From a virus, in IMG/VR virus record IMGVR_UViG_3300042294_002873, positions 1 through 23,092 of that record: a DNA stretch of 23,092 nt, one strand, 5' to 3'. The notes under the pieces are model-generated. The model was given only the letters and a program-made list of their open reading frames with translations, had not been told where the DNA came from and ran no database searches. Positions 3,965 through 22,614 of the stretch are shown here, in pieces. The position numbers and the translations under genes are program-made. Position 1 is the first letter of the stretch, and each line of letters starts with the position of its first letter.

Positions 3965-4290
3965 CGGGGGTCGTTCGGTGCTGCGGTGTGGCCCCCGGTG
4001 TTGTTAGACAATGCTGGACATTCTTGGACACTGCAAGCCTTTTTTTTAAGGGGCCAATCCAGATGCCCCCAGTCCCGCGGCTCGGTGACCTCCGTGGCCT
4101 CACCGCAGACACCGCATTTGCCCGGGTGATACGTCGCGCCGTAGGAATTACCCGCCGGTCGGCGACCATAGGCGCGTCCGCACGGCGCGCAAATCCAGTC
4201 GGGGTATTTCGGCGCGAAAATGGCCTCGTAGTTGGCACGGTATATGCGGCCATTCACCGGCCGCGGCGTGTCGCCCTTGCCTGCACTCAT
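3961..4290 (-). CDS. Zinc-ribbon-type hypothetical phage protein
   Basis: A 109-residue protein beginning MSAGKGDTPRPVNGRIYRAN, an opening seen in many small phage proteins of unknown role. Two cysteine pairs, CAPC near residues 34-37 and CGVC near 59-62, are well placed to bind one zinc ion. The last 30 residues (from about PLKKKACSVQEC) are encoded over a cluster of TGTCC decamers (4006-4030), so this tail may be a by-product of regulatory DNA. Both ends are ATGA overlaps with neighbours. Function unknown; nucleic-acid binding is only a guess from the zinc ribbon. Confidence 0.75.
   Translation of the reverse strand: MSAGKGDTPRPVNGRIYRANYEAIFAPKYPDWICAPCGRAYGRRPAGNSYGATYHPGKCGVCGEATEVTEPRDWGHLDWPLKKKACSVQECPALSNNTGGHTAAPNDPR
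4006..4030 (-). promoter_or_regulatory. TGTCC decamer cluster A
   Basis: On the minus strand TGTCC, TGTCC and TGTCT recur at exact 10-bp intervals (plus-strand GGACA at 4026-4030 and 4016-4020, AGACA at 4006-4010). The same arrangement appears at 9494-9610, 9925-9949 and 12346-12370. This copy lies in the 3' end of the zinc-ribbon gene, about 40 bases ahead of the next ATG (3964), so it could govern an internal promoter ahead of the dnaB block. A direct-repeat operator is an inference. Confidence 0.55.
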
Positions 4291-8932: not shown

Positions 8933-9162
8933 TGGCCCTCCTTCCAATTCATCACGGCGCAGTGCGCCGCCAACATCGCCGCGTAATACTCCTTGCTGTC
9001 CGTCATTCCCTCGGTAGCCAGCAGCACACGCTTCAACAGCTCCCGCGCCTCATTGCGCTCCTTGATCAGCCGCAGCATCGGAGAGTCCAGCAAGCACTCC
9101 TCATCGCCACACCCGCAGGCAGCCTCCGAGTGATACGGCGCATCAACCATGAGGTCGATCAT
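8929..9162 (-). CDS. Small cysteine-containing hypothetical protein
   Basis: A 77-residue protein with a cysteine cluster CGCGDEEC near residues 16-23 and a helical remainder (LRLIKERNEARELLKRVLLA). GGAGG lies six bases before the ATG. The ATG overlaps the TGA of the upstream membrane peptide and the TGA overlaps the ATG at 8932. The cysteine cluster could bind metal. No family recognised. Confidence 0.74.
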   Translation of the reverse strand: MIDLMVDAPYHSEAACGCGDEECLLDSPMLRLIKERNEARELLKRVLLATEGMTDSKEYYAAMLAAHCAVMNWKEGQ

Positions 9163-9296
9163 CGCCGGCCTCCAATCCGGTTAATGGCTTCCAGTGCGAT
9201 GAATGCCGCAAATATCACGGCCGTGGCGGACATGAACGTCGAGTCCGTGAGATAGCTCAATACTTCAAGCATGGTGGGTGTCGTGTGGTGTGTCAT
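9159..9296 (-). CDS. 45-residue membrane peptide
   Basis: Encodes MTHHTTPTMLEVLSYLTDST followed by a hydrophobic helix around FMSATAVIFAAFIALEAI and a basic end NRIGGRR. It is a single-pass, positive-C-terminus membrane peptide. The ATG at 9296 overlaps the TGA of the excisionase-like gene, and its TGA overlaps the ATG at 9162. An internal ATG at 9272 would give a 37-residue form with the same membrane segment. Could be a small early membrane protein, for instance affecting the host envelope; that is inference. Confidence 0.65.
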   Translation of the reverse strand: MTHHTTPTMLEVLSYLTDSTFMSATAVIFAAFIALEAINRIGGRR

Positions 9297-9490
9297 AGAG
9301 ACTTGGTGTTATTGAAAGTGCGTTGCTCGATGAACCTCTCCAGCGCCCGCATCGAGATGCGCGTGCCGCGCTGCGGCCCGACCGAAAACGCCGGCAGCTC
9401 ACCGCTGCGGATCGCCTCCTCCAGACGCGAGCGCCGCATACGCAGCGCCTTCGCCGCCTCGGTCACGGTCATGGCAAGTGGGGCATTCAT
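9293..9490 (-). CDS. Excisionase-like HTH protein
   Basis: A 65-residue protein with a winged helix of the MerR/Xis type: MTVTEAAKALRMRRSRLEEA (helix-turn-helix), IRSGELPAFSV, then GTRISMRALERFIEQR. Short proteins of this design are excisionases or anti-repressor-like regulators. It is the first gene of the leftward early operon and faces the plus-strand regulator across a 122-bp region packed with TGTCC decamers. The ATG at 9490 is chosen because the longer frame reads through those repeats. It probably binds DNA near attP or the control region and favours excision or lytic growth. No SD is evident; the decamer GGAC sits in the SD place, so a regulator binding there could also block translation initiation or mask the promoter. 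Confidence 0.76.
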   Translation of the reverse strand: MNAPLAMTVTEAAKALRMRRSRLEEAIRSGELPAFSVGPQRGTRISMRALERFIEQRTFNNTKSL

Positions 9491-9612
9491 CGTTGTCCAA
9501 GAATGTCCAAAGATGTCCGAGTGGTCAACAATTATTTTCGGACAATCTTGGACACATGGGGTGAAGACCCTATTTGACAATTTTCGGACAACAGCGGACA
9601 TTCGTGGACGCT
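9491..9612. promoter_or_regulatory. Divergent control region with TGTCC decamer clusters B, C and D
   Basis: Between the excisionase-like and RHH-like genes. Plus-strand TGTCC at 9494, 9504 and 9514 (cluster B); GGACA at 9540 and 9550 (C); GGACA at 9586 and 9596 plus GGACG at 9606 (D), all 10 bp apart, with a partial TGACA at 9575. A consensus -35 TTGACA lies at 9574-9579 pointing right, with only a poor -10 (GACATT, 9597-9602) at 17 bp, which would start transcription very near the ATG at 9613. On the minus strand TTGACC near 9528-9523 is a possible -35 for the early operon. The layout resembles a phage lysis/lysogeny switch. Confidence 0.68.
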
Positions 9613-9879
9613 ATGACAACACGCACCCGAGCCGACCGTAAGGACAGCAAGTCAGTGACCATCTCGCTGACCCCGTCCGACCATGCTAGGCTCCTACGTC
9701 ACGCACCCGCCCACGCGGTGAAAAACAACAAATACGCCCAGCTCGCCATCCGGTTCTTTATGGACTGCGAGGACGCCTTCGCCGGCCCGCTCAACGAGCA
9801 GTTCCGCGCCATGCTCGTCCGCGACGCCAAAGGCTTGAGCCAGAAACTCGCCAAGCTCCTCAACAACCCCAAAGCCTAA
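9613..9879 (+). CDS. Ribbon-helix-helix-like regulator candidate
   Basis: An 88-residue protein. After a basic tail (MTTRTRADRKDSK) it has a strand SVTISLT followed by helix PSDHARLLRHAPAHAV and a second helix NKYAQLAIRFFMD. A strand followed by two helices is the ribbon-helix-helix fold, whose members bind tandem direct repeats with the strand. The C-terminal region (LNEQFRAMLVRDAKGLSQKL) is helical and may mediate oligomers. It is divergently arranged with the excisionase-like gene, and its ATG sits three bases after decamer cluster D, so it would regulate both itself and the early operon. The start is at 9613 since the longer frame reads through the decamers; no SD is visible, so a leaderless start is possible. 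A lysogeny repressor role is inferred from position, not shown by sequence alone. Confidence 0.65.
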   Translation: MTTRTRADRKDSKSVTISLTPSDHARLLRHAPAHAVKNNKYAQLAIRFFMDCEDAFAGPLNEQFRAMLVRDAKGLSQKLAKLLNNPKA

Positions 9880-9924
9880 GCGCAAAAAACATGACGAAAA
9901 AAATCCGCAAAATTTTAGTTGCCA

Positions 9925-9949
9925 TGTCCAGAATTGTCCGATAGTGTCC
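9925..9949 (+). promoter_or_regulatory. TGTCC decamer cluster E
   Basis: TGTCC at 9925-9929, 9935-9939 and 9945-9949, three units exactly 10 bp apart, ending eight bases before the ATG at 9958. Unlike cluster D, the orientation relative to the downstream gene is reversed. It presumably overlaps the promoter or ribosome site of the 80-residue gene and so brings the plus-strand cargo genes under the same control as the switch region. Confidence 0.6.
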
Positions 9950-9957
9950 ACAACGTA

Positions 9958-10200
9958 ATGAACGCACATACCAGACTAAACATTAATCAAGGCAATCTTC
10001 CCGCATGGGCAAACCAGCAAGCCGAGCGCCTTGCCAAACTGCGCACATTTCAACCCGGGGGCTGGACGGCCGTCGGTAGTGCATCCGCCACACGCAAAAT
10101 CAAAAGCCAATTGCGTGAAGCAGGACTCTCGGGCAGCTGGCTCGACGCAACAATTTTCGATATAACGGATCTTGCTAAACTGATTGCGAGGGCCGCCTAA
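9958..10200 (+). CDS. Hypothetical protein of the lysogeny/cargo block
   Basis: An 80-residue protein not recognised. It opens MNAHTRLNINQGNLPAWANQ, then a helix QAERLAKLRTFQPGGWTAVG, and ends with an alpha-helical region around SGSWLDATIFDITDLAKLIA. The start at 9958 follows decamer cluster E; a longer frame from 9919 would translate the repeats and is rejected. The next gene starts two bases after its TAA, so the two are likely co-transcribed. A small regulator is conceivable from size and place, but nothing shows it. Confidence 0.62.
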   Translation: MNAHTRLNINQGNLPAWANQQAERLAKLRTFQPGGWTAVGSASATRKIKSQLREAGLSGSWLDATIFDITDLAKLIARAA

Positions 10201-10201
10201 C

Positions 10202-10786
10202 ATGAAAACCATCGACGCCCGCACCATCGCCCTGATCGGCTTCGCCGCCAGCCAGTGGGCCGAGGAACGCATCAACGGCAGCCGCCACAGTCGCCGCTAC
10301 CGCCAGCTCATCGCCGCCGGCCTTGCCCTGCACCAGAACGGCGAGCTATACGCATCGGCTCCTAAAATGCGCCGCGCCCTCGCCACCATCGCCCGACACG
10401 CCGCACCTCTGGCCATGCTCCTCATCGCGTGCCTGCTGACCGCCTGCGCCACCACGCCACAGCCCGAGACGTGGAACACCGAGCGCGCCAAGCCCGTCAT
10501 CACCATCGACATCGCCAGCATCCCACCCGGCGCCCTCATCTACGCCAACGCCGAATACGTCGGCACCGCGCCGCTCAAAATGAAAGTCGTCGCCGACCGC
10601 TTCGGCAACTGGGAGCAAAACACACGCATCCAAGCCTACGTCCCGCACGACGTAAAAAACTACGAAGAAGCCGTCTACCCGAGCGGCTTCCGCATACCCT
10701 CCCGGCTCCTCCTCCGCGTCCCAGGCTACACCCATTGGCACTCCGCCACCCAGCAGCGCCCACCGCAACCGCTCACCATTCAATGA
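10202..10786 (+). CDS. PEGA-domain lipoprotein, lysogeny cargo candidate
   Basis: A 194-residue protein. Residues 1-55 are a helical, basic region (SQWAEERINGSRHSRRYRQL); residues 56-81 are a lipoprotein signal (MRRALATIARHAAP, hydrophobic LAMLLIACLL, lipobox LTAC), and the rest includes a PEGA-like domain (ITIDIASIPPGALIYANAEY, VGTAPLKMKV). PEGA domains are surface beta modules on lipoproteins. In-frame ATG at 10367 would start a conventional lipoprotein of 139 residues; the longer form puts 55 residues before the signal peptide, which is unusual. No SD precedes 10367, while a weak GAGG precedes 10202, so I keep the longer form but flag it. As an envelope protein expressed from the lysogeny side it could be a superinfection-exclusion or conversion factor; that is inference. 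Confidence 0.7.
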   Translation: MKTIDARTIALIGFAASQWAEERINGSRHSRRYRQLIAAGLALHQNGELYASAPKMRRALATIARHAAPLAMLLIACLLTACATTPQPETWNTERAKPVITIDIASIPPGALIYANAEYVGTAPLKMKVVADRFGNWEQNTRIQAYVPHDVKNYEEAVYPSGFRIPSRLLLRVPGYTHWHSATQQRPPQPLTIQ

Positions 10787-11007
10787 ACCGCCACGACTAC
10801 TTCTCCACCGGCACCTTCCCATGGGGCGGCATCCGCCTCGCCGGCCGCCGATTCGACAGCCCCGAGCTGTTCAGCATCATGCGCCGGCACCGCCTCTGCG
10901 CCGACAGCATCCGCCACGCCTGCGCCGACCTCGATCTCCTGCCCTACGCCGAAGAATGCGCGGCCATTGAGGCGCATATTTGCCGCACTGAGGCAGCCTA
11001 TGTATAA
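10783..11007 (+). CDS. Hypothetical protein
   Basis: A 74-residue protein, not recognised. The front (MNRHDYFSTGTFPWGGIRLA, GRRFDSPELFSIM) is beta/loop-like and the remainder helical with several cysteines (LCADSIRHACADLDLLPY, EECAAIEAHIC). The ATG overlaps the TGA of the lipoprotein gene (ATGA), and the next gene begins inside its last codons. It is likely translated together with the lipoprotein; a partner role in the envelope is possible but not shown. Confidence 0.62.
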   Translation: MNRHDYFSTGTFPWGGIRLAGRRFDSPELFSIMRRHRLCADSIRHACADLDLLPYAEECAAIEAHICRTEAAYV

Positions 11008-11152
11008 TCCGCGCATGAAAGACCGACACCTGTGCCCACACTGCGGAAGGGCCGTGTACACCAAACAGCAGGAGTTCTGGCAAACCGTCATCGCCGGACT
11101 CGCCGGCCTCGGCCTCGTCGCGCTTGTCGTGATTATCAGCCGACTATTTTAG
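11000..11152 (+). CDS. Zinc-ribbon membrane peptide
   Basis: A 50-residue peptide with CPHCGRA near residues 12-18 and a C-terminal transmembrane helix (VIAGLAGLGLVALVVIISRL). A GAGG sits six bases before the ATG at 11000, overlapping the end of the preceding gene; a second ATG at 11015 would lack five residues. Short zinc-ribbon membrane peptides occur in both phage and host genomes with no uniform role. Its 3' end overlaps the end of the convergent integrase gene by 9 bp. Confidence 0.62.
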   Translation: MYNPRMKDRHLCPHCGRAVYTKQQEFWQTVIAGLAGLGLVALVVIISRLF

Positions 11153-12247
11153 CCCATCCCACACGCTGGCCACGTCCACCTCTCGGTCGTACACCGCATA
11201 GAACCGCGCCGTCGTCTGCGGGCTGGCGTGCCCCAGCATGTGCTGCACCACGCTGATCTTCCCGGTCGCGTTCAGCATATCGCTGCCGGCCTGTCGCCTC
11301 AGCTCGTAGGCCGCCGAGCGTCGATCGGGAATAAACTCGCGCACCCAAGCGTTGAACACCCGCTCCATAAACCTCTTGCGCATGTCCGGCGTGCGTCCGG
11401 CAACGATGTAGTCCACCGCCTCCAGCAGCTCCGGCACCATCCACGCCGGTAGCGACATCACCCGACCCCGCTTGTAGCCCGTCTTCAGCGTCAGCTCTTG
11501 GTCCGGCCGCTCGACGATCACGATCACATGACGGCCCTCCCGCTCCTCAATCCACCCACGGCGGCAGTGCGCACACTCCTTCGGCGTCATGCCGAGGTAG
11601 CGCGTGAGCAGATACCCGCGGCGGATATTGCCGCCGATAGCCTTGCTCGACGCCTCCATTTTCTTGAGGATCTCCGGTTCAAGGCGGATAAACGTCGAGA
11701 CCGAAGCCTTCATGCCGGTCGTGGCCGCGGCGAACTTGGCGATATTGTCCGGCAGATCAAAGCCCTCCCACTGCAGCGGATGGGCAAACACCGCCCGCGC
11801 GCCGGTCAGGTTACTGCGCACGCTGTAGGGGCTACCCTTGTAAGCAGCAACATATTTGCTGATCAGCCTCGGGGTGAGCACCGACAAGTGCAGCGCCCTG
11901 ATCGCCTCATCGCCCTTCTCCGGGTACACGCACCGCAAGACCCGCAGCAGGCAGTTGACATTGCCGTGCCGGCTGGCGATTTTGCTCACCCTTTCGTAAT
12001 GCTCAATCGCCGCTCCAATCGTCCCCGTCGTGTCGCGCCGCGCAAAAGCCCGCAAAGCTTCCAGCCCCTTGGCAGCCGTCGCGTCCATCACGACCTTCGC
12101 CTTGGCCTTCGCCGTGGCCACGTCCTCGGTGCCCAGGCTCATGCGCTGCCGCTGGCGCAGCTCCGGGTGGTAGAACTTGAGCTGCCATTTCGGCGAGGAG
12201 CCGTGCTTGTAAATGCGGCCGGTCAATCCCGAGGTTTTAATCACCAT
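11144..12247 (-). CDS. int: Tyrosine recombinase (phage integrase)
   Basis: A 367-residue integrase that would insert the phage at a tRNA gene. Residues 1-75 form an arm-binding domain (SGLTGRIYKHGSSPKWQLKF), 76-170 a core-binding domain and 190-367 the catalytic domain. Visible active-site residues are K255 or K259 (TLKTGYKRGRV), R317 (YELRRQAG), H340 (MLGHASPQTT) and Y350 (ARFYAVY), the last being at H+10 as in several phage integrases. Two canonical residues are altered: T221 (LGMTPKE) sits where Arg I is expected, and Y314 where His/Lys II is normal. I chose ATG 12247; the upstream frame starts with TTG at 12268. Upstream lies the attP-like site. It is convergent with the cargo block and separated from the excisionase-like gene. 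Family certain; the altered residues deserve a check. Confidence 0.88.
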   Translation of the reverse strand: MVIKTSGLTGRIYKHGSSPKWQLKFYHPELRQRQRMSLGTEDVATAKAKAKVVMDATAAKGLEALRAFARRDTTGTIGAAIEHYERVSKIASRHGNVNCLLRVLRCVYPEKGDEAIRALHLSVLTPRLISKYVAAYKGSPYSVRSNLTGARAVFAHPLQWEGFDLPDNIAKFAAATTGMKASVSTFIRLEPEILKKMEASSKAIGGNIRRGYLLTRYLGMTPKECAHCRRGWIEEREGRHVIVIVERPDQELTLKTGYKRGRVMSLPAWMVPELLEAVDYIVAGRTPDMRKRFMERVFNAWVREFIPDRRSAAYELRRQAGSDMLNATGKISVVQHMLGHASPQTTARFYAVYDREVDVASVWDGLK

Positions 12248-12566: not shown

Positions 12567-15500
12567 CTACGCACCGCGCAGCATTTCAAGTATTTCAAGC
12601 GGCGGCGACTCCGCGGCCTGCCGAATCGGTGCTATTTGCTCTTGCGGTTCTGGGAGGACGAGTTCAGGGGCGTGACGTTTGTAGGCTTCGCGGAGGATCT
12701 CTGCGTACCTCCCACGAAAACGAACGATGTCCCGTATTTTTGAAGCGCCTCCTCGTTTGACAATCGCCGATAGGTAAGATTGTCCATCTTGGTTGCTTTT
12801 CCAGTCGTTTCCATAGCTTGTTACCCTAGCAGACGTGTCTTCAACGTCAATTTTTATTCCGTTTCTTCCCGCCCAATCGTTGAGCCTTTTGACGGCCTGA
12901 TCAGCCCTCTTTTCGGTCAACCCCTTGGGCTTAAAATCTTTGGTCGCGTCCGCAATCATGCCGGCGTCGCCGCCAGGGAGCTGCTCCATCGTATAGCCAG
13001 AAATCTCAGCATCATCGATGATCGATTGCATCTCCACGTCGGTAAATTTGCTGCCGTCAGCCTTCTTAAACATCAGCACCCGGCTGTCCTTGCCTCCAAC
13101 GCCCAGCACCGTGGACATTGTCATGGCTTGCTCGGATGAGTTGGCCAGCGCGAGACCCAAAATATCCGTTGCCTCAGCGCTGCCGAGCACCTCGATGACA
13201 GTCGTTGGCGATCGCATCTTGCCCCATACCCCAGTGCCGGAAGACACGCGCTGAACGCGCAGCGATCCGCCGATCATTTGCGCCAGCTCGCCGATAGCCT
13301 GCGGAATCACATCCATCGTAATCGCTCCAGCCGCCTCTGGGGACAGCAGATCAAACGATGGATAATTCGCCGGCAAGAGATTGCCAGACGAGAAATTGAC
13401 CTCCGCGTAAATACGCGAAGTGTTCTGCTGTAGCGCGCTTAACACGGTCGGCTCAGGCAATCCGTATTGCCGCAGCACGCGCATCCACCCGACCGCCTGC
13501 ACTTCCGCGGGCGTCCACTCGCCGCCGCGCCAGCCGATCTTGTTAAGGTGATCGGTCATTGCGTTGCCCCATTCCGAGATGCCCTCGTATTTCGGGCCGC
13601 CTGGGCTGCCGCGCATATCCACGCCAACATCGAATCCTTTACTGCCCTGCGGCATCACCCGAATGCGCTCCGGCACGATCACCGTCTTGTTACCCTGCTT
13701 GACCGCCTTGGTCTCCAGCACCTTCACGCGCGTTGGCTTGCCATCAATGAACAGGTCACCATCGTCGGAGCGCTGCTTCAGCCGCGTCAGCGTCTGCTGG
13801 TCAACGTGCCCGCTGTCGCGCCCCGTGTGAACGTCTGCCACAAATGGCCGCCCGCCCGCAGGCTGCTTCGCCATGTAAGTCCGATATTCGCGCAGGAATC
13901 CCGCATCGACAAAGTCCGTCAGCTTCGGCCCGAATCCGCCCTCCGGCACCCTGCCAAGCAGCACACCTTCGATTTTTCCGTCTGCCAATCCGCCCTTCTT
14001 GCCAGTGCCAATGCCGGCCAGCCGGTCCTCAACCTTGAAGACATTGCCCAGCGCGCCACCAGGGCTGACATTCTGCTGCGCCGCAAGCCAAGCCATCATC
14101 ATCTCGCCGGCGCGGTCTCCGAAAATCTCGGTAAAGTAACCCTTCAACTCGCGATACCATTGCCGGTAAGCCGCCGTCTCCGCGGGCGCCTGCCAAGCCT
14201 CCGTCTCTTCAATCCATCCGGCGAACGACTTCCCGCCGTCCTTTTTGATTGCGCCAATGTAAATCGGCCGCCCCTGGTTGTCGTGAAAGCGCACAAACTT
14301 ATTCTTCGCCACGCCAGTGCCCTCGCGCTTCGCCTGCTTGGCGCGAAGGTTCTCCATGCCATCGCCAACCGCTTTCTCAAGGAATTTTGCCGAGCGAAGC
14401 CCGACTGCATCAGCATCAACATCGACCACATCCGGCATCGCCTGCCCGCGGCGCCCTACATCACCTTGAGTCCCGCGGGAAGCTCCCCGCGGCGCTGCAT
14501 TCGCATCACCGTTGCCAGCCACAGGCGCATCTCCGGCGGGAAGGACTTCTGCACCTTCCAGCGCTGCATACGGGACGCGCTCACGGTAGCTTTGGAAGAA
14601 GGCTTCGGCGTCCTCGGGATGACGGTTCGCGTAGTCACGATAATTAGTATAAGACTCCTTGCGCTGCTTGGCAAGTGACCGGAAGTAAGCGTCAGCCTCT
14701 TGCAACTGGCGGGCGCTGTCGGCGCGCCAAGATGCATCCGGCACGCGCAGGGTGCTACCGTCCGGCTGGACAAAGTCCGGCATCCCCTGAGCCTCCCGCG
14801 GGATCTGCTGGGGCATGCGGTTGTTGTTGATCTTGTCGTAGTCGAAGAAGTAGCCGGTGCGCCCGCTCGGCTGGGCGTCGTTGAGGCGGTCGATGCGCCA
14901 GGTGCGGATGCTGCCCTTGGGATTTAGCTCGGCGTAGAGCGGGTTGGCGGCGCGCTGCACGGCGGTGCCGGTGCCGATGAGTCCGTTGAGCGTATCGCGC
15001 TTCTGCTGTCCGATGGTTGCCTCTCCGGGCAATCCGTTGCGGTGGTTGGCGAGGTAGGTCTTGAGGTCGGCCTCCACCTGCCGCATGTCGTTGTTGAAGA
15101 TGCCCAGCTCGCCGCGGTTGATCGCCTTCATGGCCGACGCGCGGAAGGCGTTAAGGTCAAGCGAGGCGGCGAGCAAATGGTTCTGCTTGGTCACCTGCCA
15201 ACCGAAAGGCACGGTCTCGCGCTGGATGGCACGCACAGCGCCCATGTTGGTGATGCGATAGCGTCCGCTGGAGCTGGTGCCGATGGCGTTGTAATCGATA
15301 TTCCAGCTCCCGCCCTCGGCGCGGCTGGCTTCCATGGCCCGGGCAAACTCGCGCACATGCTTGGGGAATTGCGTGAAGAGGTCAAACTGCGGCGGTAGCA
15401 CCGGCCCGCCGATGACTTCGCGGCCGTTGACCTTGCGCTTGCCAAACTCGGTCGAGTTCACCGGCACAAACTTGCGCGCATCGTACAGCGTCTTGATTTG

Positions 15501-18500
15501 CGCTGCGCGGTTGGCCTCAGCGGCGTTGATGATGCGCTGCGGCTTGAAGCTGTAGGTGCCGTCCGGCTTTTGGAAAAGGAAATCGTTCTCCAAGACGCCG
15601 CGTCCCTCGTCCCGTAATTTGACGTGCGTGCTGCGCGCCATGTCTTCCGGGCGGCTGCTGCGCGCCAGCTCCACGCCGCGGGGCGTTGCGCTGCCAGCCT
15701 CCTCGAGGCCGGTCAAAAATTGATCGTAGGCTCGGACGTATTCCTTCACCCGCTTCTGCATGATGCGGTCTTGGAAAAGCGGGTTGTCGCGGAAAAGCAC
15801 CGACGGATTGTCCAGCATCTTGCCGGTGCCGCGGTCAAGGCGCACGCCCATCATCTCCAGCACCCGCCCGCCAGTCGCCAGCATTGCCTCGGCGAGGCGA
15901 GGGAAGGCGGCATCGCGGCGGATCGCGCGGAAGTCAATGGCCGGCGCCTCGCTGGCAAAAGTCTCGGCGATGATCTCGTCCCGCGCCCAGTCGAGGGGGT
16001 CTTGGCCATTTTCAATGCTGCGCTGGGATAGCTCTTCGACACGCTGGTCGATGAGACGCTGTCGTGCCTGCTCAGAAACCGGCTGGCTCTTCATAATGTC
16101 CGCCAGCGTTGTCTTGCCTGTGGAGACGGCATCGATCTGGGCGTCGGTCAATTTGACCGGGGCGTCCTCAATCGCGCCGACCAGAATGTCCTTGTCCACC
16201 AACTGTGTTGCGTACTCTCTGCCGCGCGCAGCGACGCCTTCGGGCGCATATTGCTGGTTCACCAAATTGCGCAGATCGTTGCGCGGCTGACCGTCAAGAA
16301 TGTTGCTGGTCAAAATGGCGTGACCGATTTCGTGCGGGATAATTCGATTAGGCGACAAGTCCTGCGCCAGCCGCTGGTTGGACGACACGGTGTCGCCCGT
16401 TTTAACTAGCAGCCGAACTCCCTGCGGCACATGCGTCGAATCCACGGTCCCGTCTGCCGCGGTGATGTCGATCACGCTGCCACCGCGATCAGCGTCGGGG
16501 CGCACCACGACCGAGCCGTCCACCGGAGCTGTGTGGCCCATGTTGACGAAGATCCTCGCCAACCCATTGGCGTCCTTTTCAACGTAAAGACCCGCGGCCG
16601 TCTCGCCGCCGGCTGCGCGGAGGTCGGCGTTGGCCCGATAATCCTGACCACGCAGCGGGATAAATTTTACCTTGTCGCGCAACACGCCCTGCATGGCCGC
16701 CAACTGCGAGAGGCTGTCGTGCGAAAGCGACATGAGAGACGCTGCGTCACCGTTGCTCTCGGTCACATCGACCAGCATTCTGGCAATGTCGGCGTCCACC
16801 TCGGCCGGCCGCCTGCCGAAAGCCCTTGTCGCCGTCCCGGCAACAGTTCCCAGCAGAACAGCGCCGCCCACAATCTGCCCGCCTTGCTCGGCATCTGGAG
16901 CCGTTAAGGCAAACGGAGCCGCCGCAAGGCCAGACACCGCAGCAGAGCTAACAATGTCGTCCGTTAGCCGGAAGACTTGTGTTGCGCCCAGGTTGTCCGC
17001 CGTCCGCGACAGCCTGCGCAGCATCTGCGGGTTCTCGGGGCTTTTGGCCACACGCTGCAGCGTACTCTCAACAGACCCCGCGCCGGGCTGCATGTAGCGG
17101 GCGTAGCGCTGGGGGAACACGCCACTCTTGGCCATCGCCTCGGCCGTCTCGGCACCAGCCACGCCGACGCCTCCAGCACCCATTTCGCGCACGATGGCAT
17201 AACCGCCGCCCGCGGCCCCTCCGGTGCGCCGAAGAATCGCCCCGCCAAATTTCATGATGGGCAAGATCGAAAGAACACCTGTAGCCACGCCACCTATTGC
17301 CGCCGGCGCTCCTTGACCTTGCGCGCTTAAATAACCCGCGGTGGCAGTCAACGCTGTTGCGGCCGCCGTCTGCTGCCCAGCATTCATTCCGGTCAAATCC
17401 TGCACCTTGTCAGTGATACGCATGGAGCCGCGCTGCAAAGCGTCCGCCCCCGCATTGGCCACCCCTTCCGTCATCTTAAGAGGCACTCCGGTTATCGAAG
17501 ACAGGCGGCGCAGGACGCGCGCCTTGGCCAGCACACCAGCGCCAACCGGCAAAATGTTGTCCGGCGCCATGGCCAAAGATAAGCCAGTTGCCAAGGCACG
17601 CTGTGGCTGCATGACCTCGCCGGTGAACGGATTTGTGGCCCTTGCCTCGCTACTTTCTTGCGTTACCGGCGTCTGGCCGATGCGGTAATTTCCCACGCCC
17701 GCAATCTCGCGGTCAAAGTTCTTGCCGCGCCGATAATCTTCAAACGCCTGTTCGACATCAGCATTTTCTTCCAGCGGCGTTGGCGCCGTCTCGCCACGTT
17801 CTTTCGCCGCGGCAAACTCGCGGTTGATGATTTCAATGTCCTTGCGCAGGTCGCCGGAAAGTTTGCCCTCAGCCTGCAGCTTTTGGGTAATGGCGCCGCG
17901 CACCTGCTCCTGCCTCCGCACGTCTGTAGCATGGTCGCGCACCGTGTTGCCGATCCAGTCAACGAACTTGGCAAACTCCAAACCGGCCTTGCGCCCACCC
18001 TCCTTAAACGTGACAAAGTTCTGCGTAGCGAAGCGGTCTGGCCGGAAAAGATTGGAGGTAAAATTGTCCCGAAGCTCGCCGCCCATTTCCGCAGTAAGCG
18101 ACACCAGCCCTTGGCCCGCGGCAACCGCTCCATCCACAAAGCTGCCCACCGTGTTCTTTTGCTCCTGCCTCCGCGCATGCACCGGGGCAAACTCCTCAAA
18201 GGGCATCTCATAGGACGGATCATAATACAAAGCGTCCTCTTGCGCGTTCAGCTCTGCATCTGTCAGCGGCCTTGCTGGCGCTCGAAAGTCCGCTTGCGGT
18301 GGCTGCGGTTCAGGCTGCGGCATGGTCTTCTGGCCAAAGGACGTGGCCTGCATGACGCTGTCCGACGTGACGCGCTGGTCCATCTGCGCGTCCGTCATCG
18401 GGGCGGCCTCCGGCGGCTCGAGCACCCTAGCGGCAGTTCCGTAAAGGTTCTGTCGAGCCTCCATCTCGTCCATTGCGTCGAGCTGGGCGTCTGTAAAGCC

Positions 18501-18509
18501 TTTTGCCAT
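12567..18509 (-). CDS. Giant virion/ejection-type polyvalent protein with HEIGH zincin motif
   Basis: A 1980-residue protein, the last gene of the late block. Its N-terminus repeats a short TDAQ-type motif (residues 6-12, 39-45, 83-89 and again at 788). Residues 300-330, 375-460 and 520-565 are hydrophobic, Gly/Ala-rich segments fit to cross or line a membrane, as in podovirus ejection proteins. HEIGH at 726-730 in IIPHEIGHAI is a zincin metal-binding and catalytic helix; a possible third ligand is in DEIIAE near 844. Further on are charged domains I cannot name, including one around VADVHTGRDSG. Giant multi-domain proteins carried in the virion and injected with DNA ('polyvalent proteins') are known in phages and often include such peptidases. 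SD is weak and the gene starts three bases after the previous stop. The whole frame is intact. I am confident that it is a virion-type giant; the exact job of the peptidase is open. Confidence 0.72.
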   Translation of the reverse strand: MAKGFTDAQLDAMDEMEARQNLYGTAARVLEPPEAAPMTDAQMDQRVTSDSVMQATSFGQKTMPQPEPQPPQADFRAPARPLTDAELNAQEDALYYDPSYEMPFEEFAPVHARRQEQKNTVGSFVDGAVAAGQGLVSLTAEMGGELRDNFTSNLFRPDRFATQNFVTFKEGGRKAGLEFAKFVDWIGNTVRDHATDVRRQEQVRGAITQKLQAEGKLSGDLRKDIEIINREFAAAKERGETAPTPLEENADVEQAFEDYRRGKNFDREIAGVGNYRIGQTPVTQESSEARATNPFTGEVMQPQRALATGLSLAMAPDNILPVGAGVLAKARVLRRLSSITGVPLKMTEGVANAGADALQRGSMRITDKVQDLTGMNAGQQTAAATALTATAGYLSAQGQGAPAAIGGVATGVLSILPIMKFGGAILRRTGGAAGGGYAIVREMGAGGVGVAGAETAEAMAKSGVFPQRYARYMQPGAGSVESTLQRVAKSPENPQMLRRLSRTADNLGATQVFRLTDDIVSSAAVSGLAAAPFALTAPDAEQGGQIVGGAVLLGTVAGTATRAFGRRPAEVDADIARMLVDVTESNGDAASLMSLSHDSLSQLAAMQGVLRDKVKFIPLRGQDYRANADLRAAGGETAAGLYVEKDANGLARIFVNMGHTAPVDGSVVVRPDADRGGSVIDITAADGTVDSTHVPQGVRLLVKTGDTVSSNQRLAQDLSPNRIIPHEIGHAILTSNILDGQPRNDLRNLVNQQYAPEGVAARGREYATQLVDKDILVGAIEDAPVKLTDAQIDAVSTGKTTLADIMKSQPVSEQARQRLIDQRVEELSQRSIENGQDPLDWARDEIIAETFASEAPAIDFRAIRRDAAFPRLAEAMLATGGRVLEMMGVRLDRGTGKMLDNPSVLFRDNPLFQDRIMQKRVKEYVRAYDQFLTGLEEAGSATPRGVELARSSRPEDMARSTHVKLRDEGRGVLENDFLFQKPDGTYSFKPQRIINAAEANRAAQIKTLYDARKFVPVNSTEFGKRKVNGREVIGGPVLPPQFDLFTQFPKHVREFARAMEASRAEGGSWNIDYNAIGTSSSGRYRITNMGAVRAIQRETVPFGWQVTKQNHLLAASLDLNAFRASAMKAINRGELGIFNNDMRQVEADLKTYLANHRNGLPGEATIGQQKRDTLNGLIGTGTAVQRAANPLYAELNPKGSIRTWRIDRLNDAQPSGRTGYFFDYDKINNNRMPQQIPREAQGMPDFVQPDGSTLRVPDASWRADSARQLQEADAYFRSLAKQRKESYTNYRDYANRHPEDAEAFFQSYRERVPYAALEGAEVLPAGDAPVAGNGDANAAPRGASRGTQGDVGRRGQAMPDVVDVDADAVGLRSAKFLEKAVGDGMENLRAKQAKREGTGVAKNKFVRFHDNQGRPIYIGAIKKDGGKSFAGWIEETEAWQAPAETAAYRQWYRELKGYFTEIFGDRAGEMMMAWLAAQQNVSPGGALGNVFKVEDRLAGIGTGKKGGLADGKIEGVLLGRVPEGGFGPKLTDFVDAGFLREYRTYMAKQPAGGRPFVADVHTGRDSGHVDQQTLTRLKQRSDDGDLFIDGKPTRVKVLETKAVKQGNKTVIVPERIRVMPQGSKGFDVGVDMRGSPGGPKYEGISEWGNAMTDHLNKIGWRGGEWTPAEVQAVGWMRVLRQYGLPEPTVLSALQQNTSRIYAEVNFSSGNLLPANYPSFDLLSPEAAGAITMDVIPQAIGELAQMIGGSLRVQRVSSGTGVWGKMRSPTTVIEVLGSAEATDILGLALANSSEQAMTMSTVLGVGGKDSRVLMFKKADGSKFTDVEMQSIIDDAEISGYTMEQLPGGDAGMIADATKDFKPKGLTEKRADQAVKRLNDWAGRNGIKIDVEDTSARVTSYGNDWKSNQDGQSYLSAIVKRGGASKIRDIVRFRGRYAEILREAYKRHAPELVLPEPQEQIAPIRQAAESPPLEILEMLRGA

Positions 18510-18512
18510 TAG

Positions 18513-19463
18513 TTATTGGACGGGGTTCCAAAGTCCGTCGTCACCTTTTTCGTAGGTGATCCCGCCGGAAACACGTCGCGGCTTGGCCGGTGCGGCGGCC
18601 GAAACAGTGCCAGGTGAGGACGGCGCATTGTCCGAGGCGAGCCGTTTTTCTGCGTTGGTTAATACTTCCAAAACCTCTCCCATCGACTTACGGAATCCCT
18701 CCTCCGACTGAGAATTCTGCGCGCGTACGATAGCCTGCGTGGCTTTCTCGCCCTCCACGTCGGTGATCGGCCCGCCGCCCTTCAGTGATTGGAACGCCTG
18801 CAAAAATGCCCCGCCCTTGAGCTGGTCGAGCATTGCCATGAAGTCCGCTTCCTTGGTGCCAGAAAACGGCTGACTCTTTAGGCCAAAAAGAAAAGAAGCA
18901 TTTTTTGCGCCCACCGACCCAGAAAAGCCGGGATGCTCTAAGATGCCGCTCACCACGCCGCGCAAAATGCCGATTTGGTCCCGTGTGGCTTGCGCTTTTT
19001 CGTTGCGCTGAGCCTCTAGGGCTTGGTTGCGAGGATCGCTCGCCGCCTTATTCCGCTCATCCTGCATCTTGTAAAACTCCTGCGCCGTATCCGCCGCCCA
19101 CTTCGGGCTGACCTCCATGTTGTAGCTGCGGTCGTAGACGTGCTGCAGTGCCGGGTCGAGGGCGTCGTACATGGCGTTGAACTCCTCGTCCGAAGCCGCG
19201 TTGTTGAGCTGCTGGATGAAGCTAACGTCCATAAACGCGCCGGTCGGCTTGAGGTTAGGTTCGGCGCCGCGCACTTCGGTGGCGGTTGAAAGATCGTTGA
19301 CCACGTCTTCCGGCGCCGCCAACGAATCGTCAGACATGGCCGGACCGTAATTGGAATCAACATCGGCCAGCGAGTTGTTGATGCTCGTCTGGCTTGCCGA
19401 GTCGAGAGCCGGAAGATCTGGCTCAACCGGAGGCGGAAGCTGTCTGTTGCGGGGGGATGCCAT
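18513..19463 (-). CDS. Virion-associated hypothetical protein
   Basis: A 316-residue protein. The first 75 residues are acidic and disordered-looking, 80-140 are helical (QQLNNAASDEEFNAMYDALD), and the stretch around 180-275 has a recognisable phage motif: FSGTKEADFMAMLDQLKGGA, FLQAFQSLKGGGPITDVEGE, QSEEGFRKSMGEVLEVL. Proteins with 'ADF...LD.LK...FLQA...LKG.G.ITD.EG' sit near ejection or tail-hub genes in several phages. The C-terminus (ITYEKGDDGLWNPVQ) is a short beta end. It lies between two other virion-like genes. I infer a virion or ejection role, but I cannot name the family formally. Confidence 0.7.
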   Translation of the reverse strand: MASPRNRQLPPPVEPDLPALDSASQTSINNSLADVDSNYGPAMSDDSLAAPEDVVNDLSTATEVRGAEPNLKPTGAFMDVSFIQQLNNAASDEEFNAMYDALDPALQHVYDRSYNMEVSPKWAADTAQEFYKMQDERNKAASDPRNQALEAQRNEKAQATRDQIGILRGVVSGILEHPGFSGSVGAKNASFLFGLKSQPFSGTKEADFMAMLDQLKGGAFLQAFQSLKGGGPITDVEGEKATQAIVRAQNSQSEEGFRKSMGEVLEVLTNAEKRLASDNAPSSPGTVSAAAPAKPRRVSGGITYEKGDDGLWNPVQ

Positions 19464-19958: not shown

Positions 19959-20249
19959 TTATTCCTCCTGTATTCCCGCCGCAGCCCGTGCTTCGAGGCA
20001 CAGTGGTGAACCCGGCACGAAAGCGCGGCAGGCTGCCGGCCGGTGATTGTAAATAGAACACGACACGCCGCAGCCGACCTTGCCGGTCAGCGCCACGCAT
20101 CTATGGTTCGTTGTCTTCATCAAAGGGTAGTCGGTGCGCAGCATCCATGGCGGGATGCCAGCGGCGTCGGAGCGGTCTCGTCGCAGCACAGGCCAGGACC
20201 ACTTGTGAGAGCAGCATGCCCCACACCGTTCACAGTCGAATCTTGCCAC
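19959..20249 (-). CDS. YkgJ-type cysteine-cluster protein
   Basis: A 96-residue protein with the full YkgJ signature: an early CERCGACC motif (cysteines at 6, 9, 12 and 13), an HRCVAL element and CSIYNHRPAACRAF near the end. The family binds a metal or iron-sulfur cluster through these cysteines; the biochemical role is unsettled. The start is uncertain. The GTG at 20249 begins just before the conserved motif (MARFDCERC), while ATG 20324 adds 25 residues of unrelated look. Both overlap the PP-loop gene's 3' end, by 130 or 205 bp. The gene ends four bases before the next start. Its pairing with a PAPS-reductase-like enzyme suggests a shared sulfur or iron chemistry. The family is clear, the start is not. 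Confidence 0.68.
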   Translation of the reverse strand: MARFDCERCGACCSHKWSWPVLRRDRSDAAGIPPWMLRTDYPLMKTTNHRCVALTGKVGCGVSCSIYNHRPAACRAFVPGSPLCLEARAAAGIQEE

Positions 20250-21079
20250 GTCGGGCGGAAGCCCTGCGCTTCCGATTGTAGGTCGATGTAGGGCGCCAGA
20301 GAGCTGATGTTGTTCGTCTCGCATGAGTTCTTAGGACAGTATACCGTCTCGCCCAAGTGCCGGTTGATGCAGTTCCAGCAGACCGGGTAGTAGTCCGAGT
20401 TCGCGCTCTTGTCCTTGCGGTGCCGCCACACGCCGTCCGCCTTTTCGTAGCGCGTCTCGTCATTAGGAACGCCCTCGGCTTCCAAGTAATTCCACACCTC
20501 GGCATCCGACCAATGGCGCATAGGATAGTATTGCGTCGGCACACCGGCCTGCACCAAGGCGTCCTGCGCCAGCGGCACTTGGCCCTTGATGAGATCCACG
20601 TCGGCCGACTTTTGGCCGTGGAAAGCGGCGTCCCAAGGAAAGTTAAAGGTGCCGGTCGGGCGCTTCAGAGCATCCAGCCCGCAGAGGTAGCGTCCGCTGG
20701 CCAGCTCCTCCGGTTGCGGCTCTTCGGTGCCGAGGCAGAGGAACATCACCTTCCGCGGCGCCATCTCATACATCTTCACAAAGTCAAAGCGCGGCACGCC
20801 GGTCTCGATGTCGTAGCCGTCCGTCAGCGCATAGCCGAGCGGCGACCAGTCATACATCTCCAAGTCCCAAGCCTGCGCCAGCATGTCCGAATGCGCATAC
20901 CGGTGCCGGAACCGCGGCTCCCGCCACTGCACCACCGGCGTCTTGGCGCCCACCTTGAAGCGGATCAGGTGCAGCATCGCAGTGCTGTCCTTGCCGCCGC
21001 TCCAGAGCACGACAGGGTTGGCGCTGGCGGCGAGCCAGCGTTCCACCTTGCGGCAGGTGTCTGTGACGAGTTGATCCAT
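20120..21079 (-). CDS. PP-loop PAPS-reductase-like (DndC-like) enzyme
   Basis: A 319-residue protein of the adenosine nucleotide alpha-hydrolase superfamily. The PP-loop SGGKDS lies at 27-32 in VVLWSGGKDSTAML, followed by PMRHWSDAEVWNYL at 186-199, the typical family element. CWNC at 234-237 with cysteines at 248 and 253 (YCPKNSC) could ligate a 4Fe-4S cluster, as in DndC and related enzymes that handle sulfur. Substrate cannot be read from sequence: PAPS reduction, DNA or tRNA thiolation are all possible. The last 50 residues (from about 270) look like untypical read-through, coding out of frame over the YkgJ gene. Start: a TAATG overlap with the 511-residue gene. Sitting within the virion block, not the early block, makes late action or virion packaging possible. 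Confidence 0.8.
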   Translation of the reverse strand: MDQLVTDTCRKVERWLAASANPVVLWSGGKDSTAMLHLIRFKVGAKTPVVQWREPRFRHRYAHSDMLAQAWDLEMYDWSPLGYALTDGYDIETGVPRFDFVKMYEMAPRKVMFLCLGTEEPQPEELASGRYLCGLDALKRPTGTFNFPWDAAFHGQKSADVDLIKGQVPLAQDALVQAGVPTQYYPMRHWSDAEVWNYLEAEGVPNDETRYEKADGVWRHRKDKSANSDYYPVCWNCINRHLGETVYCPKNSCETNNISSLAPYIDLQSEAQGFRPTWQDSTVNGVGHAALTSGPGLCCDETAPTPLASRHGCCAPTTL

Positions 21080-22614
21080 TAGATAGCGATGCCGATGCCT
21101 GCGATGCCGATAGCGGCGCCCACACCGGAGCCGACCATTCCCATCGTCCCCGCTTGGCTGGCCGCTCCCGCCTGCATCCCCGCACCTTGCAGCGCGGCCG
21201 CGTTGTTGGCCCAAGAGTTGTAGCGGTTGGCCGCCATGTTGGCGTTGAAGCTCTCCACGTTGCCTGCGGTCTGCACCGCATTGTTGAAGGTGTTGCCGAT
21301 GAGACTGGTTCCTTGCCCCATCGTGGCGCTGCCAAGCTGGAAGGCCGAATTGATGCCTCGCGCATACGGATCAAGCGCTCCGTAACCTTCAGCCAAGGTG
21401 ATGCGGCGACCTCGGCGGGCGAGATCGAGCTGATTGGCCCCGAGGGCAAGATTCATGCGGCGATCATTGCCCGCGTTGAAGGCATCGTTGGCCGAAAGCA
21501 TGAAGCTGCGATTCTGCGCGAGCTGCGCCTGGTTCGCCGCCTGGTTGGCCATCTGCGCCTGCATAAACATCTGCCCCAGCGTCTGGTCGCGGTTTTGGTT
21601 AGCCAAGGATGCGCGCAGTCCGGCATCTTGATTGGCCAGAGAGGCACGCATCGAGGCGTCGAGGTTGGCCAGATTGGCCTGCTGCTGGTTGGCCGCGTTG
21701 AATTGTCCGGTATTGAAGGCCGTCTGCTGGTTGGCCATCGCCGCCCGCATCGCCGCCTCTTGGTCGGCGAGGGACATTTGACCAGCCATCTGCTGATTGG
21801 CCATCGCCGCGCGCATCTGCGCCTCTTGGTTGCCAAACTGCCGTGACACATCCTGCTGCTGCACGCCTTGGGCAAAGGCCAAATCTTCCGCCTGCCGGCT
21901 GCGGGCATAGCGGTCACGATTAAGCAACTCGGCCGCCAGACCGGCGTTGCCCGTGGCCATGCCGCGCGAGGCCATCCCCGCGCGCGCCGACTGCACCGCA
22001 TCGCGTGATGCCTCCGGCGAGAGCCTTCCGTCGCTGTTGGCCCGCTGGATCGCTTGCTGCATGAGCGCGCCGCCTAGCGCTCCGGCCTCGACATTCTGCG
22101 CGTTCACATCGGCCACCCGCTGCGCGTTGACCGCGTTCACGTCGGCCACCCGACCCATCTGCGCCGCCGCCGCCTGTTGTGCGCGCACATTGCGGGCCGA
22201 CACCTCGCGGATATTCATAGGGCCAGAGACTTGATCCGCCCGCACATCCATCGCCCCCATGCCGGCGCTTTGTATCTGGCGGTCTGCCAGCGTTGGCCCC
22301 TCGGCAAATTCGGCCGCAGCTTGACGTTGGATGTCAGACTCAAAGGACGAAGGCGCCCCGGCCGCAGCGAGTTCTTCGCCCAGCACGCCACGGGTGCGGG
22401 CGAGGTATTCGTTGTCTAGCTCGCTGGCCACTTGGCGCGCCGTGCCAAGCTGCAGCGCGGTCATCTGCGGGTAAAGCCGCTGGATCTGCGCCTCCTGCTC
22501 CCGCATCTGGGCTATGGCGCCGCGCGTGGCGGCCGCATACATCTTATCGTAATCGATTGGCTTCGGTGCCGGCGGCGCCGGTGGCGGTGCTGGAATGCTT
22601 GGTCCTCCTCCCAT
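21079..22614 (-). CDS. Q/N/A-rich repetitive virion protein
   Basis: A 511-residue protein with an N-terminus typical of internal virion or tail-tube-tip proteins (MGGGPSIPAPPPAPPAPKPI). Residues 25-130 are helical. At 157-172 VADVNA is repeated; at 262-365 a run of near-repeats (MRAAMANQQ twice, MRASLANQD, LRASLANQN, MANQAANQAQ) forms a long, alanine- and glutamine-rich helical rod. A glycine/isoleucine-rich C-terminus (GVGAAIGIAGIGIAI) looks membrane-active. AGGAGG precedes the ATG at eight bases. It lies upstream of the ejection-like genes, so a pore or ejection-apparatus role is a fair inference; a tape-measure-like or fibre shaft is the alternative. Confidence 0.72.
   Translation of the reverse strand: MGGGPSIPAPPPAPPAPKPIDYDKMYAAATRGAIAQMREQEAQIQRLYPQMTALQLGTARQVASELDNEYLARTRGVLGEELAAAGAPSSFESDIQRQAAAEFAEGPTLADRQIQSAGMGAMDVRADQVSGPMNIREVSARNVRAQQAAAAQMGRVADVNAVNAQRVADVNAQNVEAGALGGALMQQAIQRANSDGRLSPEASRDAVQSARAGMASRGMATGNAGLAAELLNRDRYARSRQAEDLAFAQGVQQQDVSRQFGNQEAQMRAAMANQQMAGQMSLADQEAAMRAAMANQQTAFNTGQFNAANQQQANLANLDASMRASLANQDAGLRASLANQNRDQTLGQMFMQAQMANQAANQAQLAQNRSFMLSANDAFNAGNDRRMNLALGANQLDLARRGRRITLAEGYGALDPYARGINSAFQLGSATMGQGTSLIGNTFNNAVQTAGNVESFNANMAANRYNSWANNAAALQGAGMQAGAASQAGTMGMVGSGVGAAIGIAGIGIAI

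Follow-up and report, generated by a model that had tools for sequence, protein, structure and literature searches.

Why does a gene resembling those for PAPS reductases lie among virion genes, overlapping a gene for a small cysteine-rich protein? In phages, the usual explanation of PAPS-reductase genes is an auxiliary role in sulfur metabolism, and the labels moron and auxiliary metabolic gene are common for them (PMC9144972, PMC11654794). The locus was examined in a 23,092-base IMG/VR virus record, IMGVR_UViG_3300042294_002873, positions 1 to 23,092, referred to here as the window. Besides its virion block, the window has genes for a DnaB helicase, a replication initiator and an integrase, and most of its long ORFs are on the minus strand. 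An initial annotation had described a PP-loop enzyme and a YkgJ-type protein that are adjacent and overlap on the minus strand within the virion block. Profile searches confirmed this assignment. The enzyme scores 30.2 bits against Pfam PF01507 (cut-off 22.5) and also matches PHROG 424, and the small protein scores 39 bits against PF03692 (cut-off 23). The pair and its neighbours are listed in Table 1.

Table 1. Features of the window virion block around the PP-loop/YkgJ pair
Feature	Coordinates	Strand	Remarks
Giant protein, 1980 aa	12567..18509	-	End of block; Bcep22-like phages have their giant virion protein here
Probable ejected protein	18513..19463	-	PHROG 2534, 'released from the phage upon host infection'
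Virion-block protein, 161 aa	19469..19954	-	Directly after YkgJ
YkgJ-type cysteine protein, 96 aa	19959..20249	-	GTG start at 20249; CxxCxxCC plus four further invariant cysteines, C51, C64, C74 and C84 (numbered from the GTG)
Enzyme/YkgJ reading-frame overlap, 130 nt	20120..20249	-	YkgJ in the -1 frame
PP-loop enzyme (PAPS_reduct superfamily), 319 aa	20120..21079	-	SGGKDS at residues 27-32; invariant C133, C234, C237 and C248
gp14-like virion protein	21079..22614	-	Starts MGGG; cysteine-free; hydrophobic Gly-rich C-terminus; likeness to T7 gp14 judged from position and make-up
Small protein, 115 aa	22616..22963	-	Position of T7 gp13 and of the Bcep22-like acetyltransferase

Two further assignments in the block were not supported. 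Pfam gives no support for the window family of the 115-aa protein as an acetyltransferase, and a match of the 1980-aa protein to apocytochrome f is under the cut-off and probably spurious. The 1980-aa protein (12567-18509) contains a HEIGH metallopeptidase-like motif. Elsewhere in the window, AT and GC skew at 9000-11500 are sharply unlike the remainder, and the three plus-strand ORFs tried in this region had no PHROG match.

To establish how widely the pair occurs, IMG/VR was searched with the enzyme and, independently, with YkgJ. At least 456 enzyme relatives and at least 291 YkgJ relatives of this subtype are present, of which the best 80 per search were read. Pairs were counted as distinct genes after removal of duplicates, using only those with enough flanking sequence. 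An enzyme gene lies within 1.7 kb of 136/136 distinct YkgJ genes, and YkgJ lies within 1.5 kb downstream of 134/152 distinct enzyme genes. In 90 of these 134 pairs the genes are adjacent or overlapping, 43 have at least one gene between them, and one is inverted. In the inverted pair (L146:5811-6212) YkgJ is encoded on the other strand and runs towards the PP-loop gene, which it still adjoins, so a simple operon accident would not account for the pairing. The initial annotation had made its reading depend on recurrence in other phages; over a hundred distinct viral genes show the pair, which excludes chance. Hundreds of uncultured short-tailed phages carry a conserved PP-loop/YkgJ pair, placed among genes for probable ejection proteins, that looks like a dedicated modification system. 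YkgJ is absent from 18/152 enzyme loci, and enzyme-bearing records of up to 66 kb exist without it, indicating that the enzyme does not always need YkgJ. On a quick enzyme tree, in which some long branches are uncertainly placed, accounting for YkgJ presence takes four changes, and both deep branches include it.

The enzyme subfamily is phage-restricted as far as sequence searches reached. A tblastn search of 50,697 phage records with three PP-loop relatives produced no match. Two YkgJ matches filed under Acinetobacter phage MD-2021a were dismissed because their neighbours are bacterial housekeeping genes; the stretch read from one record (L293, CAKLQH020000013.1) contains guaB, glmM, pdxH and recJ. 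A search of genome contigs identified one true enzyme relative, on a phage-like contig of a Chthoniobacter MAG, and three other matches were discarded as short or weak PP-loop matches. Among the matches listed for 113 genomes of the MAG's class, a PP-loop/YkgJ neighbour pair was found on the phage-like contig only. This contig hints at a Verrucomicrobiota host, although it may be a mis-binned phage.

The extent of each coding region in the overlap was examined in relatives. The initial annotation had started YkgJ at an ATG at 20324. The codon at 20249 is GTG in 27/40 and ATG in 13/40 distinct relatives, with no other codon found, and only from around this position does the YkgJ frame vary in a protein-like way. 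Codon-position variation tracks the enzyme frame until about enzyme codon 270-276 and the YkgJ frame thereafter; about 18 codons within the overlap vary little in both frames, and the final ~25 residues of the enzyme frame vary only as YkgJ allows. One relative (L050) has a stop codon within the first 25 residues that a longer YkgJ would have. Together the conserved codon, the pattern of variation and the L050 stop suggest that YkgJ probably starts at the GTG at 20249, that the ATG at 20324 and the 25 extra N-terminal residues are probably not used, and that the enzyme is probably functional to about residue 290-295, with its frame running on beyond that point across the YkgJ gene. Fusion of the two proteins by a programmed frameshift was also weighed and dismissed: YkgJ keeps a start codon of its own, and other clades have the two genes either without overlap or with further genes between them.

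The CxxCxxCC pattern noted initially in YkgJ is retained. C6, C9, C12 and C13 are invariant in 19 relatives, in which YkgJ keeps eight cysteines. The structure model of YkgJ is poor (pLDDT 62.6) and a sequence search of solved structures gave no match, so no fold is claimed. A parallel is FliB, which also has a cysteine-cluster domain, binds one [4Fe-4S] cluster and modifies a surface protein; its authors compare its cysteine motif with PF03692 (PMC8598068). FliB differs in being a methyltransferase with a CX4CX3CC motif, whereas the window YkgJ is 96 aa long with CX2CX2CC and an invariant SWP stretch.

Conservation in the enzyme was assessed with 28 diverse relatives. S27, G29, K30, D31 and S32 of the SGGKDS loop are invariant. 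The four cysteines initially singled out were 234, 237, 248 and 253; the first three are invariant, C253 is not conserved, and C133 takes its place as the fourth invariant cysteine. No cysteine beyond C248 is conserved in these relatives, so there is no ECGxH-type catalytic motif. The intact SGGKDS makes this an ATP-type PP-loop rather than a reductase loop. Because the loop is intact and no conserved cysteine follows C248, the sequence makes a true PAPS reductase unlikely. By sequence comparison, C133 and C234xxC237 match the order of Fe-S cysteines in APS-type enzymes; the CC pair is absent and C248 is extra. The invariant cysteines and analogy suggest Fe-S binding by the enzyme; zinc is possible.

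The AlphaFold2 model of the enzyme is confident (pLDDT 91.8). Residues 1-234 give similarly good matches to CysD, FAD synthase, APS/PAPS reductases, TtuA and LarE, with Z scores of 14.6 for CysD (1zun), 11.4 for the assimilatory APS/PAPS reductases (2goy) and 13.3 for TtuA over 162 residues. TtuA and NcsA, which have [4Fe-4S] clusters, are among the top PDB matches in Foldseek, and the PP-loop half of the model was also likened to Fe-S sulfurtransferases. Since several PP-loop families match equally, the fold indicates the superfamily and not the reaction. While the PP-loop fold is shared with CysD and the assimilatory reductases, the window enzyme lacks the conserved catalytic C-terminal cysteine and has a beta-rich stretch, at about residues 82-184 of the model. 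A full-length structural match was obtained with A0A6J7XPH8 from an uncultured Caudovirales phage (TM 0.86-0.93, 30% identity), suggesting that this protein is a member or near neighbour of the enzyme family; it is known here only by its annotation, 'phosphoadenosine phosphosulphate reductase'. The sulfur or Fe-S chemistry proposed at the outset is thus plausible by analogy, from the likeness of the PP-loop model and the [4Fe-4S] precedent of FliB (PMC8598068).

The position of the enzyme gene is nearly constant. A long ORF ends at the enzyme start in 150/151 distinct loci, with a 1-nt stop/start overlap in 101; the stop codon of the window gp14-like gene likewise overlaps the enzyme ATG by 1 nt. 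Where the upstream products were read they are virion-type, with a hydrophobic Gly-rich C-terminus, and none contains cysteine (33/33 cases). When loci were anchored instead on the small gene further upstream, the enzyme was present in 71/72 with room for it. In most loci of the clade to which the window belongs, the pair is followed by a relative of the 161-aa protein. Conserved gene order by itself could reflect shared ancestry of the virion block. Two loci (L118:3913-5628 and L124:4318-5992) have two tandem virion genes, the first with an MGG start and the second starting MKRP, before the PP-loop gene, where the others have one.

A literature search found no phage function for YkgJ or PF03692, and the initial statement that none is described for the pair holds as far as the literature was searched. 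In cultured Bcep22-like phages, however, this slot is taken by an enzyme resembling PAPS reductase, which has been termed a moron. A PAPSR-type enzyme other than that of the window occupies the slot in three Lessievirus phages (DC1, BcepIL02 and JC1), Aeromonas phage phiA008 and MW202711. As in the window, the gene just before that of the Bcep22-like PP-loop enzyme encodes a virion-associated protein whose C-terminus is hydrophobic and Gly-rich, and ejection-type proteins and a giant protein come after; an acetyltransferase gene lies before, in the position of the window 115-aa protein. The Bcep22-like enzyme belongs to another subfamily, scoring only 23 bits with the A6 profile and having a CC...CxxC cysteine set. 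These phages lack YkgJ, and their upstream protein starts MLEN or MLEI rather than MGG as in the window. Mass spectrometry of JC1 virions found gp64, gp67, gp68 and gp69; gp64, the positional counterpart of the window gp14-like protein, is therefore a virion protein, and the enzyme, gp65, is not in the list (PMC9144972). Its absence fits a modifier rather than a part of the virion. In phiA008 the annotation of the PAPSR-type gene (L291:4001-4687) reads hypothetical protein and begins at 4154, an internal start; the open frame from 4001 on takes in the PP-loop.

From the genes, their conservation, co-occurrence and order, and the invariant residues observed here, we tentatively propose that the pair is a late-made, ATP-dependent Fe-S enzyme and its YkgJ helper, which modify an ejection protein. 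Both would be synthesised late, alongside the ejection proteins. The PP-loop protein would bind ATP and very likely hold one [4Fe-4S] cluster through C133, C234, C237 and C248. It would adenylate its substrate and then pass sulfur or another nucleophile to it, with YkgJ, through its CxxCxxCC cluster, as its dedicated partner for Fe-S, electrons or sulfur. The likeliest substrate would be a virion ejection protein, foremost the gp14-like protein, since its gene is directly upstream and its stop codon overlaps the enzyme start. As this protein is cysteine-free, its cysteine-directed modification is excluded, and the modification would be elsewhere on it or on another protein. Modification of an ejection protein is supported by the fixed, coupled slot, by the Fe-S precedents of FliB and DndC, and by the absence of the JC1 enzyme from the virion list.

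We wondered whether the enzyme might instead act on tRNA. A sulfurtransferase like TtuA, NcsA or TtcA could thiolate tRNA and so aid late translation, with YkgJ supplying sulfur or electrons. The intact SGGKDS loop and the rank and Z score of the [4Fe-4S] enzymes among the structural matches are consistent with this possibility. However, CysD, FAD synthase and APS reductase match about as well, no RNA-binding domain was recognised in the enzyme, and a constant slot beside one virion protein is unexpected of a tRNA enzyme. Action on tRNA is thus unlikely. It is more doubtful that both proteins are packaged and injected so as to work, perhaps against a defence, in the cell infected next. The pair does sit between ejection-type genes, but the PAPSR-type enzyme of JC1 is not listed in the virion (PMC9144972), although it belongs to another subfamily and a missing list entry is weak evidence.

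A true PAPS or APS reductase that raises the host cysteine supply is the reading that the PF01507 and PHROG 424 matches and the usual labels of similar genes (PMC9144972, PMC11654794) would favor. The ATP-type loop, the lack of an ECGxH-type motif, the constant slot in the virion block and the absence, as far as searches reached, of cellular relatives of the subfamily, save the one phage-like MAG contig, make it improbable. The initial annotation had likened the enzyme to DndC, with which it shares the SGGKDS loop and a comparable set of four cysteines. Those proposed for DndC are C146, C273, C280 and C283, of which C146, C280 and C283 are common to APS reductase, an Fe-S precedent (PMC12193691). 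In the window enzyme, the fourth cysteine comes after the CxxC and not before it. Late thiolation of phage DNA, as phosphorothioate or a thiolated base, is very improbable despite weak DndC-like matches and the similar cysteine set (PMC12193691), since the enzyme scores 19.1 bits against the DndC model NCBIfam TIGR03183 (cut-off 290.4) and DndD and cysteine desulfurase were both absent from the seven related phage records examined, which may be incomplete and whose hosts could supply a desulfurase.

A near-constant enzyme, a constant virion-protein neighbour, invariant cysteines of an apparent metal site, the lack of the conserved reductase cysteine and a usual YkgJ partner lead away from metabolism. 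The pattern points to an uncharacterised modification chemistry in the building or delivery of the podophage ejection machinery. The same-slot enzymes of cultured Bcep22-like phages make part of this question testable, and the proposal would give a candidate role to YkgJ, a widespread family about whose function little is known.

The start of the upstream protein suggested one form that modification of an ejection protein could take. In Cap9 and QatC, QueC-family protein modifiers, a PP-loop enzyme likewise lies beside a protein often beginning MGG; the partner CD-NTase starts MGGS and QatB starts MGTS, and Cap9 of type IV CBASS modifies the N-terminal glycine of the MGGS-starting protein (PMC13279940). 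By analogy, the enzyme and YkgJ might cap the N-terminal glycine of MGG-type virion proteins as a viral counterpart of Cap9 conjugation, a speculative idea that we consider doubtful. If it were true, ejection proteins would need the attached chemical group for assembly, for passing the membrane or for evasion once in the next host. An MGG start is found in 105/150 distinct upstream genes and is absent in 30%. Where it is found the glycine codons vary freely (GGT, GGA, GGC), so the glycines themselves appear to be selected. Conversely, the window enzyme is not QueC by Pfam (no PF06508 match; the best relative tried, L187, has 18.5 bits against a threshold of 22) and no link to 7-deazaguanine is known. 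An MGG gene is absent from 15/87 longer loci, so MGG is not required. Six hand-chosen cultured podophages without the enzyme contain no convincing MGG-start gene; the sole MGG ORF counted in them, in phiKMV, was rejected as antisense to an annotated gene. Many virion-block proteins of these phages begin MGG, again with freely varying glycine codons (21079-22614 in the window; L226, L261, L268, L275, L277 and others), and several small tandem MGG virion proteins end in FGG plus one residue (FGGA, FGGV, FGGT).
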